From positions 1 through 25,318 of the IMG/VR virus record IMGVR_UViG_3300020119_000002: a stretch of 25,318 nucleotides of DNA; one strand, 5' to 3'. The notes beneath the pieces were generated by a model, which searched no databases, was not told the DNA's origin, and was given only the letters and a program-made list of their open reading frames with translations. The translations under genes were made by a program, and so were the position numbers. The DNA comes from a virus. Of the stretch, positions 6,902-22,033 are shown piece by piece (position 1 is the stretch's first letter; each line of letters begins with the position of its first letter).

Positions 6902-6922
6902 AAAAAAAGCCCCGAAGGGCTT
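6902..6922 (-). terminator. Intrinsic terminator between the DUF6246-like gene and the tape measure gene
   Basis: In minus-strand RNA a 6-bp stem, AAGCCC paired with GGGCTT, closes a UUCG tetraloop and runs directly into seven U. The stop codon of the upstream gene forms the left foot of the stem, and the tape measure ribosome site lies just past the U-run. It is one of several terminators of the same design in this late unit. Confidence 0.8.
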
Positions 6923-7565
6923 AATGTTTTCTGTTGTTGTCGCGCTGCATTAGCTTTTCTGCCCAATCCATCGTCTGGTCATAGTTCTTCTGAGATGGGA
7001 TTTTGGCTTTAGGCGGTGGAGGATATTTCGCTTCCATGGCGGCACGGAAACTGGTCATTGTCATGTTCCATGCTTCGGACTCACTCATGCTCAGGTGGGC
7101 CACAGCAAGGTAAACGAATGACCGGGCATCAAAGCGGTTTGTGTACTCGCCGTCTTTCGCTACGTCTTCATTGTCCTGATCGCCCATTACTCCGTGTTTA
7201 ATCAGGTGACGCGCCAGCGTGAGCACATCTTCAAGGGGCATGAATCCCTTCTTCATGACGAGCTTGCCGCGCGGCGTGTAGGCATACCCACCGACCAGGT
7301 GCGAAATGTCTTCCTCACAGCACGACTGAACTATTAGCGCAGCAGCCTTGACCATTCTGGCAAAGCATACCGCGCGCGTATCCTGTAACAGCTGCTCGTT
7401 GCGGATCACATGTTGAGGATAGTGACCACCGTGGACATGCACCATCGCAGTAACGACTTCTTCAGGCGTACCGATGCGTGTCATAGCCAGGAATGACGGA
7501 TTCAGAAAATACGTGTGGCCGACGAGTTTTATCTCCGCCTGGCCGATGTCTGTTATTGCTGCCAT
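6921..7565 (-). CDS. DUF6246-like protein in the tail assembly chaperone position
   Basis: This 214-aa protein lies between the major tail protein gene and the tape measure gene, where siphoviruses encode the tail assembly chaperones (lambda gpG/gpGT) that hold the tape measure before tube assembly. The sequence resembles the DUF6246 family. It is mostly helical with no membrane segment and ends in a basic, polar tail. Unlike lambda, there is no room for a frameshifted T extension: the stop is followed at once by a terminator and the tape measure gene. AGGG lies 5 nt before the ATG. The chaperone role is inferred from position. Confidence 0.65.
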   Translation of the reverse strand: MAAITDIGQAEIKLVGHTYFLNPSFLAMTRIGTPEEVVTAMVHVHGGHYPQHVIRNEQLLQDTRAVCFARMVKAAALIVQSCCEEDISHLVGGYAYTPRGKLVMKKGFMPLEDVLTLARHLIKHGVMGDQDNEDVAKDGEYTNRFDARSFVYLAVAHLSMSESEAWNMTMTSFRAAMEAKYPPPPKAKIPSQKNYDQTMDWAEKLMQRDNNRKH

Positions 7566-7572
7566 ATCATCC

Positions 7573-7614
7573 CTGCATTATAGGGGCCGAAGCCCCACCG
7601 TAAACCAGTGTCAA
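7573..7614 (-). promoter_or_regulatory. Stem-loop between consensus-like -35 and -10 hexamers before the DUF6246-like gene
   Basis: On the minus strand TTGACA (7609-7614) and TATAAT (7577-7582) both match the sigma70 consensus but are 26 bp apart, too far for a standard promoter. Between them GGGGC-TTCG-GCCCC forms a very stable UUCG hairpin with no U-run. A weaker -35 (TTTACG) 16 bp from the TATAAT is possible. The region may be an RNA processing or stabilising hairpin, or a weak internal promoter. Confidence 0.35.
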
Positions 7615-7922
7615 GTAGCAGGATCCACAACTATATGCATGGCCGGACTTTTAACACTATTTCCCTCTGTATCAGTCACGGTGACTGTGACAGCGTAATA
7701 ACCGGCAGCGGTAGGGGTACCCGCCACCTGCAGCTTAGACGAGGTTAACCCACCCAACACCGAGAGGCCAGCCGCTGAAGACGGTGAAAACGTCCATAAG
7801 TACGAGTACGTTCCATCATCTGGCTGAGTTAGGTTAGGAGTTACCGTGACGCTGTATGCAACGCCAACATCCGCAGAGGACGGAGTGTTAAGAGTTGCCT
7901 TTGTTATTACGCTTGCTACTCC
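7611..7922 (-). CDS. Second Ig/PKD-like domain of the major tail protein, in the -1 frame
   Basis: Directly after the major tail protein gene, the -1 frame is open for 103 codons and ends with TGA at 7611-7613. It has no plausible ATG, GTG or TTG start near its beginning. The encoded residues read as a beta-sandwich domain: alternating V/T strands, DDGTYSYLWTFSPSS, TAAGYYAVTVTVTDTEGNS, typical of Ig/PKD-like repeats. The natural way to express it is a -1 slip at the G-run (GTG GGG GAG TAG) just before the stop, giving a tail protein of about 345 aa. Ig-like extensions on phage structural proteins made by frameshifting are known (Fraser, Maxwell and Davidson). An alternative is that the stop arose by a recent indel. 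Confidence 0.65.
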   Translation of the reverse strand, partial: GVASVITKATLNTPSSADVGVAYSVTVTPNLTQPDDGTYSYLWTFSPSSAAGLSVLGGLTSSKLQVAGTPTAAGYYAVTVTVTDTEGNSVKSPAMHIVVDPAT

Positions 7923-8647
7923 CCCACGGTCACAGTTGCCACGTCTGAAGTCGCGCTACCCGCAGTAGTGGAGGTCACTACCACAGTGTAATCTCCAGCG
8001 TCGGTGGAGGTTGTGCTCGGCTTGGTGTACGTCGCTGAAGTTGCGCCAGATACAGCACTAGAGCCTTTCTTCCACTGATAGGTCAGCGCAGACCCATCAG
8101 TAGCATGAGCCGCTACAGACAGAACCAGTGTCTGCCCTGCAGTCAGGCTCTGATTGACCGGCTGGGTGTCGATTAGAACTTCATCCGGCACATCGCGCAC
8201 GTCGACCAGTCCAGCACTGGACGCTTCCAGAGACCATGTTGCGACGTCATCGTGTGGGGCTTCATCTTCCCACGAGGTAACGAGGAAAGGCCCTTCGGTG
8301 ATGTCGTTCGGAGATACAATTTTAAACCAGACGAAAGGCTGATTGCTTGTATCAACTGGTGGATTGTAAATGTGACGCTTAAGCGCGTTCTGCGCATACG
8401 CATCTTCTTTACGTGTTACACCGTCTCCAGAGAATGATACGTCTTTATACGTGGTCAGATTCTCTTTTGTGTAAGACGCGCTCATGTCGCCGGTCGCATC
8501 AGCGGTGTCCCACTCTACTGACGTGGTTTTGCCGCGCATCATGCCGAGGCGCTTATATTCACTTGCTGTAGGTTGTGCTTCCGGGCATGCAATCGCGTAA
8601 TAAACGACGACGTCACGACCAGTAAAAGCACCTGATTCACATGCCAT
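7916..8647 (-). CDS. Major tail tube protein with C-terminal Ig-like domain
   Basis: This 243-aa protein has a tail-tube core at about residues 1-150 (ESGAFTGRDVVVYYAIACPE at the start, then DATGDMSASYTKENLTTYKD) and an Ig-like domain at about 155-242. The latter has the usual signs: TQPVNQSLTAGQTLVLSV, ALTYQWKKGSSAVSGATS, DAGDYTVVVT and a closing VATVTV strand. Tube proteins stack as hexameric rings around the tape measure; such Ig domains sit on the tail surface. GGAG lies 9 nt before the ATG. The stop TAG (7916-7918) directly follows a G-run, and a second domain is encoded in the -1 frame. Confidence 0.9.
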   Translation of the reverse strand: MACESGAFTGRDVVVYYAIACPEAQPTASEYKRLGMMRGKTTSVEWDTADATGDMSASYTKENLTTYKDVSFSGDGVTRKEDAYAQNALKRHIYNPPVDTSNQPFVWFKIVSPNDITEGPFLVTSWEDEAPHDDVATWSLEASSAGLVDVRDVPDEVLIDTQPVNQSLTAGQTLVLSVAAHATDGSALTYQWKKGSSAVSGATSATYTKPSTTSTDAGDYTVVVTSTTAGSATSDVATVTVGE

Positions 8648-9561: not shown

Positions 9562-10053
9562 ATGGTTACCGCCGAATTTTTACGAGAGATTCTTTCTTAC
9601 GATCCAGAAAGCGGCATCTTTCACTGGAAAAAAACGTTATCGCATCGCAATAAAGCAGGCAATATTGCCGGAACCATTACGGATAGGGGTTATGTAGTAA
9701 TCACCATTAAGAGGAGTCGACTTATGGCTCATCGTCTTGCCTGGCTGTATTTCTACGGTTCTTATCCAGATGGGGTTATTGACCATATCGATGGTGAGAA
9801 GGCCAATAACGCTATTGCAAATCTCCGCGATATCTCTCAAGTAATTAATACTCGAAATAACTGCCTATCAAAAAACAATACCAGCGGATATCCCGGCGTA
9901 TACCTGAATAAAAAGACGGGCAAGTGGGCCGTGCAGATATGGCATGGGATGAAACGCAAGTGTCTAGGCAGTTATGAGTTAAAAGAACACGCCATACAGG
10001 TAAGAAAGCAGGCCGAAGCTGAGCTTGGGTACAAGGTCAGATTTACGTCATGA
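9562..10053 (+). CDS. HNH homing endonuclease with AP2 DNA-binding domain, antisense to the late operon
   Basis: This 163-aa protein has an HNH domain (AHRLAW at 56-61, IDHIDGEKANN at 73-83, ANLRD at 86-90) and a C-terminal AP2-like domain at about 107-150 (SGYPGVYLNKKTGKWAVQI). This is a frequent design for free-standing phage homing endonucleases, which cut DNA lacking the gene and so spread it. It is the only phage gene on the plus strand. It sits between two neck genes, and its 3' end overlaps the 3' end of the convergent 121-aa gene by 11 bp. GAGGG lies 7 nt before the ATG. No intron is evident around it. Confidence 0.9.
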   Translation: MVTAEFLREILSYDPESGIFHWKKTLSHRNKAGNIAGTITDRGYVVITIKRSRLMAHRLAWLYFYGSYPDGVIDHIDGEKANNAIANLRDISQVINTRNNCLSKNNTSGYPGVYLNKKTGKWAVQIWHGMKRKCLGSYELKEHAIQVRKQAEAELGYKVRFTS

Positions 10054-20072: not shown

Positions 20073-20540
20073 TTATTTGAGGCACTGCTCTCTGATGTAT
20101 TCCTGCAGCGCACTCAATGCTGTTTGGTCGCTGAGGATTCCGGATCGGATACCGAGAACGTTTCGTCCAGCAACGTCAGAGAGTTCGACGGTGGCATCAT
20201 TGCCCATGCTGGGGGAGCCGGTGGTTTGGGTTGAGGCTGGCACTGGACAGCGGCCTTTGACGAGCACCCGACCACCATTATCAAGCTTACGCTGCAGAGC
20301 ATCATTTTCAGCTTTTGCATCGGCGAGTTCCTTCGTGTATTTGGCGTCCAGTGCAGCGACATCGCGCTGCCGGGTTGTCATGTCTTTGATGGTGGCGTTA
20401 GCCAGGCTGAGTTTCTCAGTGGCCTTATCACGCTGGTCTTTATAGGTGATGGCGTTGTCACGGTAGTGGTTAATCGCCCAGGCCATCGAGACCATCAGGC
20501 AGATGATTACTGCGCAGATAATTGCTTTCAGGCGACTCAT
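20073..20540 (-). CDS. Rz: Rz inner-membrane spanin
   Basis: This protein is 155 aa from ATG 20540, which overlaps the endolysin stop as ATGA. It has an N-terminal membrane anchor at about 5-22 ([18 protein letters not shown]) and a periplasmic coiled coil at about 25-90, the typical i-spanin layout. With Rz1 it fuses inner and outer membranes in the last step of lysis. An upstream in-frame ATG at 20552 would start inside the endolysin gene and is less likely. The Rz1 gene is embedded in another frame. Confidence 0.9.
20114..20320 (-). CDS. Rz1: Rz1 outer-membrane lipoprotein spanin, embedded in Rz
   Basis: Within Rz in a second frame, ATG 20320 has AAGGA 8 nt upstream and encodes 68 aa. It has a lipoprotein signal ([19 protein letters not shown], cleavage before C19) and a Pro-rich mature part ([11 protein letters not shown]), the hallmarks of Rz1 o-spanins. 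It is lipid-anchored in the outer membrane and binds Rz across the periplasm. The embedded architecture is the same as in lambda. Confidence 0.9.
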
Positions 20541-21031
20541 TTCTGGCCCCATTCACATACTTCGCGCTCGATATCACGCCGGGTGATCAGCCCCTTCCAT
20601 TGCTTCCCACCGGCATACGTCCAGCGCTGCAGTTCTTTGCATGCTCCTGGCACGTCACCGGAGTTAAGCTTCTTCAGCAGCGTGGAGCTGGCGAAAGCGC
20701 CAGATCCAACGTTGTAAGTAAAGGAGTAAAGCGCGGCGCGGGTAGGCTCCGGGATGCGAACCTTGATCAGCGGGTCGATGGCGTTTGCCACCTTTTGCAG
20801 ATCTGCCTTCAACAGGTTGTCGCACTCTTTATCCGTATAGCGATGACCCCGGCGGATATCGCTTCCAGTGTGACCATCACAAACCGTCCACACGCCGACC
20901 ACGTCCTGATATGGGTAATAGCGGCGGCCTTCCAGCCCATCAGCGTTTCCCAGCATGACAGCGGCGATAGTAATCGCGCCTGAGCCACCAACAATCGCGC
21001 CCACCAGTTTATTCCTGAGTGTCGGGTTCAT
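20537..21031 (-). CDS. SAR endolysin, phage 21 R-like lysozyme (GH24)
   Basis: This 164-aa protein has the T4-type lysozyme triad at the standard spacing: E34, D43 and T49 in [18 protein letters not shown]. The N-terminal segment (about 10-28, rich in Gly/Ala) is a weakly hydrophobic signal-arrest-release domain, as in phage 21 R. The enzyme is exported by the Sec system, stays tethered and inactive, and is released when the pinholin depolarises the membrane. It then cleaves the glycan strands of peptidoglycan. It overlaps the holin gene start-to-end and the Rz start. Confidence 0.92.
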
Positions 21032-21465: not shown

Positions 21466-21948
21466 TTAAAAACAAGAATACTCCCCATGCAAATCAGCTC
21501 TTTTTTTATCCATCCATTCCACCAGTGATGGAATATCTCGTGATGATTTTGTGAGTTGCTTGCCGTTTATTCCAATGCGAGCCATGTAGTATCCTGGCGA
21601 TCGCTCATTGATGCCTTTTGGGAGCCCGTTAAGATTCCTTCTCCGACTGTTGAAAGTGTTTTGACTCCTGGTGGCAGCTCTGAGGTTCTCAATGCGATTA
21701 TCAGTCCTAACATGATTGACGTGGTCTACTTCCATTCCCTCGCCAATCTCGCCATTACATACCTCGTAAACGATGCGGTGAGTAAGAAGCAACTTCCCAA
21801 AAAATCGTGTTTGCAGGTAACCGTCATTGTTTATCGAAGCGCCGGGTACTTCACCTTTCTTTGCTTTTCCCCTCTGAACTTTATTCCTCAGGAGGCATGG
21901 GCTTGTTTCGTCATAGTAAAAATAATCGCTTAGTGCGATGGTTTTCAT
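21466..21948 (-). CDS. HNH homing endonuclease with AP2 domain in the lysis leader
   Basis: This protein is 160 aa from ATG 21948, with AAGGA 7 nt upstream; an in-frame TTG at 21963 overlaps that site and is less likely. It has an HNH core (LTHRIVYE at about 55-62, MEVDHVNHVRTDN at 72-84, IENLRAATRSQN at 86-97) and a C-terminal AP2-like region at about 105-150 (GLPKGINERSPGYYMARIG). It is divergent from the other HNH gene in this window. It sits between the Q-like gene and the lysis genes as the first gene after the late leader, and is bracketed by terminator-like hairpins, which suggests a mobile insert. Confidence 0.88.
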   Translation of the reverse strand: MKTIALSDYFYYDETSPCLLRNKVQRGKAKKGEVPGASINNDGYLQTRFFGKLLLTHRIVYEVCNGEIGEGMEVDHVNHVRTDNRIENLRAATRSQNTFNSRRRNLNGLPKGINERSPGYYMARIGINGKQLTKSSRDIPSLVEWMDKKRADLHGEYSCF

Positions 21949-21961
21949 GGTGATTTCCTTC

Positions 21962-22033
21962 AAAAAAGAGCCCTCAGTTCACGCAGGAAAGCCAGCACCC
22001 GAGATTCACCATATCTGGAGATCCTCTGAGGGC
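21962..22033 (-). terminator. Large stem-loop with U-run upstream of the HNH gene
   Basis: In minus-strand RNA GCCCTCAG (22033-22026) pairs with CTGAGGGC (21977-21970) across a 48-nt loop, followed closely by six U. The closing stem is perfect over 8 bp, and the loop can form small internal hairpins. It could be a terminator or a structured RNA; the large loop is unusual for a plain terminator. Confidence 0.45.

Follow-up and report, generated by a model that had tools for sequence, protein, structure and literature searches.

Ig-like domains on phage tails are believed to promote adhesion to host surfaces or mucus. That such domains are appended to tail and head proteins by frameshifting is established for SPP1 gp17.1*, Listeria phages PSA and A118, Lactobacillus phage A2 and T3 gene 10 (PMC5009743, PMC9022992), in which a short structural protein is followed, behind its stop codon and in another frame, by an Ig-like domain that has no start of its own. 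It has been proposed that Ig domains spread by non-homologous recombination and that chance decides whether they end up in frame (PMC5009743). In the Yersinia phages PY54 and P840 (L090 and L091), a -1-frame Ig domain follows the tail tube gene, and in both a C_CCA_AAG heptamer adjoins the stop codon in the overlap. We found the same general arrangement in the sequence analyzed here (the window), which comprises the 25,318 bases of IMGVR_UViG_3300020119_000002 and carries the minus-strand late genes of an ES18/Oslo-like siphophage: a second Ig domain lies one base out of frame behind the stop codon of the major tail gene, a genuine domain gain of a familiar type.

Features around the 3' end of the major tail gene in the window
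Feature	Position	Strand	Basis
Major tail (tube) protein gene, 243 aa	7916..8647	-	phrog_853, Phage_tail_2
Overlap in which the frame change must occur, 40 nt / 13 codons	7916..7955	-	stop-to-stop frames
GGGGG run, holding the sole Z_ZZN tetramer (G_GGG) of the 13-codon overlap	7921..7925	-	sequence
-1-frame extension, 103 residues + TGA, He_PIG/PKD Ig-like	7611..7922	-	frame analysis, Pfam
Inserted segment, 327 nt	7597..7923	-	blastn vs L009-L012
-1-frame ATA, candidate weak internal start, 13 nt past the GGGGG run	7905..7907	-	sequence
GGGGCTTCGGCCCC, terminator-like hairpin conserved 3' of the tail gene in relatives	7583..7596	-	comparison with relatives
DUF6246 gene (ES18 gp17 position), intact, next downstream of the tail gene	6921..7565	-	Pfam PF19759, 186.6 bits

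The 243-aa protein belongs to the ES18-like major tail protein family, as shown by the conserved gene order and by a full-length match to phrog_853 in a profile search (E=1.5e-81, residues 1-241); the Pfam family Phage_tail_2 scored 39.5 bits. A tube domain (approximately residues 1-150) is followed by a single C-terminal Ig-like domain (residues 159-241), which matches Ig_3, Ig_2 and PKD slightly under the Pfam cut-offs and corresponds in alignment to the one Ig domain that the relatives have. The gene ends in GTG GGG GAG TAG (7927-7916, minus), the five G being those at 7925-7921. Farther downstream, the tape measure gene starts only ~20 nt past the DUF6246 gene, and the record for ES18 gene 17 (L003:3838-4491, the homologue of 6921-7565) mentions a +1 frameshift that may occur at its 3' end. 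Elsewhere in the window there are two HNH_3 endonuclease genes (Pfam PF13392), at 9562-10053 (+), on the strand opposite to the neighboring late genes, and at 21466-21963 (-), as well as an Rz/Rz1-like spanin pair, in which a small lipoprotein-like ORF (20114-20362, -; ...VVGCSS...) is nested in another frame within an Rz-like gene (20073-20552, -).

The -1 frame is open from stop to stop between 7955 and 7611 (minus). Read from the GGA at 7922, it encodes 103 residues beginning G-V-A-S, and a slip after GGG would give a protein of 242 + 103 = 345 aa with the junction V-G-G-V-A-S. The extension scores above the Pfam cut-offs for both He_PIG (26.1 bits; cut-off, 24) and PKD (25.3 bits; cut-off, 23.5), and its codon score is positive in the -1 frame only, which together rule out a chance open reading frame; 0.9% of base shuffles reached an open frame of 103 codons. 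There is no ATG, GTG or TTG in the first 53 codons, and the extension overlaps the stop codon of a structural gene in another frame, as is characteristic of an Ig domain appended by frameshifting. Stop codon readthrough is ruled out, since the zero frame continues TAG CAA GCG TAA TAA. A single-sequence AlphaFold prediction of the extension was uninformative (mean pLDDT, 43.6). The first-pass annotation had thus described the end of the tail gene, its completed Ig domain and the 103 open codons correctly in every detail, and the second Ig/PKD-like domain that it had proposed behind the stop, with no start of its own, is borne out and is complete.

To place the extension among its relatives, we compared the locus with the contigs that carry the nearest IMG/VR relatives of the tail protein (L009-L012; 88-91% protein identity). 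In these contigs the protein ends after the first Ig domain and is followed by a GGGGC...GCCCC hairpin and the DUF6246 gene. In blastn comparisons the homology broke off at 7924 and resumed at 7596, so that the window differs by a segment that follows the final strand of the first Ig domain and precedes the terminator hairpin. Nearly all of this insert is a single complete domain whose edges fall at sensible places, a pattern suggestive of selection for display. Its codon usage ranks at the 2.6th percentile among native 103-codon windows, or at the 4.1th when only synonymous codons are considered, and this atypical usage suggests a recent gain. Together with L009-L012, the gp16-type tail proteins of ES18, Oslo and SPN3UB are closest to the 243-aa form and share its gene order and terminator hairpin but, unlike the window, have one Ig domain only and no extension. 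Across related tail proteins we found three in-frame architectures: no Ig domain (mEp021-like, 158 aa), one Ig domain (ES18-like, ~241-248 aa) or a pair of Big_2 Ig domains (phi297-like, 329-331 aa). An out-of-frame Ig domain was found in none of these related tail proteins, and among the contigs compared the extension was seen in the window only.

Is there a signal that could direct ribosomes into the -1 frame? No efficient slippery sequence, either an X_XXZ_ZZN heptamer or a shifty tetramer such as A_AAG, occurs in the 40-nt overlap, in keeping with the earlier description of the site as nonstandard; it contains only the G_GGG tetramer. As a control, we looked at the same 13 codons in relatives without an extension and found a Z_ZZN tetramer in 22 of 38 distinct gene ends and a heptamer in none, from which we concluded that the G_GGG of the window is at the level expected by chance. 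A systematic assay of all tetramers and heptamers in Escherichia coli placed G_GGG at background (Sharma et al. 2014; PMC4066793); G_GG.G gave no slippage there even with a pseudoknot, and the signal that it did produce was put down to Shine-Dalgarno (SD)-like initiation at an AUA 7 nt downstream. Downstream RNA folds in the window, modelled as pseudoknot-free structures, were not significant (z = -1.4, -0.4 and -1.1), and no SD-like stretch was seen by eye 8-14 nt upstream. These results lend no support to the suggestion in the first-pass annotation of a programmed site at the G run that yields a fixed fraction of long subunits.

A close search of viral contigs with the extension itself returned no close relatives, and a profile search returned one convincing viral relative, L202 (IMGVR_UViG_2917518688_000001, 1045-2375; 43% identity; He_PIG, 42.4 bits). 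There, as in the window, the domain occupies the -1 frame immediately after the stop codon of a structural gene, which it overlaps; unlike in the window, the gene is that of an SU10-type major capsid protein and a canonical C_CCT_TTC heptamer stands four codons before its stop, making L202, judged by its sequence, a strong candidate for a capsid protein extended by frameshifting. The principle invoked at the outset, that phages append Ig domains by frameshifting, thus finds support both in the literature and in the closest viral relative of this domain. A homologous junction between the window and L202 through the shared AGCGTAAT was considered and rejected: the shared bases are out of register in the protein alignment, nucleotide identity is 49%, and only 12 of the 44 identical residues have identical codons. 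Other matches to the extension were weak and came from plasmids (mostly Pantoea and Cronobacter adhesins) and one Acidobacteria metagenome-assembled genome (MAG). Gordonia and Rhodococcus phages also have weakly similar domains at the end of their major tail proteins; in Gordonia phage Elinal the domain is in frame.

We give about even credence to the reading that this is a recently landed out-of-frame Ig domain, displayed at best at a low level by -1 slippage. An ES18/Oslo-like siphophage would recently have gained a He_PIG/PKD domain through recombination that placed it after the end of the major tail gene and ahead of the terminator hairpin, in the -1 frame and downstream of a stop codon that still works. 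Almost every ribosome would then terminate, giving the 243-aa tube subunit with one Ig domain, and the 345-aa form with two would arise only when glycyl-tRNA occasionally slips by -1 on G_GGG before GAG UAG. The rate of slippage is probably at or below ~1%, and the extra domain would decorate the outside of at most a few subunits per tail, where it may have an adhesive role. A lambda-sized tube has ~190 subunits, so that even with slippage at 0.1-1% a tail would contain between zero and two long subunits. The complete, clean-edged domain was also weighed in favor of expression by frameshifting; selection for display would, however, call for an in-frame fusion or a mechanism more efficient than background slippage, and this counts against the low-level reading. 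The likelihoods that we attach to this reading and to its rivals are judgements and were not computed.

A serious rival, which we consider unlikely but by no means negligible, is a one-base indel: the true gene would encode an in-frame, two-Ig tail protein (GTG GGG GGA GTA...) from which one G was lost in the run, through either assembly error or recent mutation. One added G would indeed join the two frames into a continuous 345-aa frame, the run is the only homopolymer of at least five in the whole two-domain gene, and the locus has no credible programmed slip site. Against this, 32 of the 32 contig genes checked are intact despite ~50 other runs of five or more, so the contig is not error-ridden, which favors the low-level reading; moreover, the stop codon sits where the one-Ig protein of close relatives ends (...VTVE* in L011, ...VTVGE* here), a match that an accidental shift would produce only by luck. 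The first-pass annotation had named close relatives with both domains in one frame as the sign of a simple indel, and in this respect the comparison was divided: distant relatives in Pseudomonas phages do have two C-terminal Ig domains in frame (329-331 aa), of another Ig class, whereas close relatives have one domain only. A further possibility is that an added G arises in some mRNAs by transcriptional slippage on the run, restoring the frame and fusing the domains. A run of only five G is short for slippage by bacterial polymerase, and we regard this explanation as exceedingly unlikely.

Programmed frameshifting at the tail gene is possible but unproven, and we consider it improbable that the G run supports an efficient version of it, with a tuned fraction (several per cent) of two-Ig subunits. 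Such frameshifting is known for Ig extensions of tail proteins, in PY54 and P840 the major tail protein itself is extended by a -1-frame Ig domain, and the closest viral relative of the domain, in L202, likewise forms a -1 extension; but G_GGG does not slip in E. coli even with a pseudoknot (PMC4066793), significant downstream structure is absent from the folds examined, and the overlap has no heptamer to set beside the C_CCA_AAG of PY54 and the C_CCT_TTC of L202. The assay that argues against slippage also raises the alternative of independent initiation, in which the purine-rich GGGGGAG would act as a ribosome-binding site for a -1-frame AUA start (7907) and yield a free Ig decoration protein without any fusion. 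The SD-like element and AUA that Sharma et al. 2014 (PMC4066793) invoked for the G_GG.G signal are both present in the window, but AUA is a very poor start codon, the spacing of 11-13 nt is longer than in their construct, and the first 53 codons offer no conventional start, making initiation of this kind very unlikely.

Returning to the reading of a recent, out-of-frame landing, we suggest tentatively that the window may have captured an early stage in the gain of a frameshifted Ig domain, in which a foreign domain has just landed and is shown only through a minimal, single-tRNA G_GGG slip beside the stop codon, an efficient site not yet having evolved. A fresh, precise, out-of-frame domain combined with a poor slip site would be a direct test case for the chance-landing idea. 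Should the locus instead be an in-frame fusion that assembly has altered by one base, it would encode an ordinary two-Ig tail protein.

Compared with the SPP1, PSA, A118, A2 and T3 systems, the window differs in that its short form already has an Ig domain, the second being of the He_PIG/PKD type, and in that it lacks a canonical slip site, making its frameshifting a candidate only. The phi297-like Pseudomonas phages (L095-L175) likewise have related tail proteins with two C-terminal Ig domains but, unlike the window, both are in frame and of the Big_2 type; PMC9022992 describes tail tube proteins as having one C-terminal Ig domain each, and these phages have two. PY54 and P840 resemble the window in having a tail tube gene with a -1-frame Ig domain that begins at the stop codon. 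In PY54, however, the zero-frame gene has no Ig domain, the tube protein is not of the ES18 type, and the overlap contains the most efficient E. coli heptamer, C_CCA_AAG. Taken together, L202, the Gordonia and Rhodococcus phages, and PY54 and P840 show that this class of domain serves as a virion decoration and that placement in the -1 frame is a real phage habit, in agreement with the literature (PMC5009743, PMC9022992).
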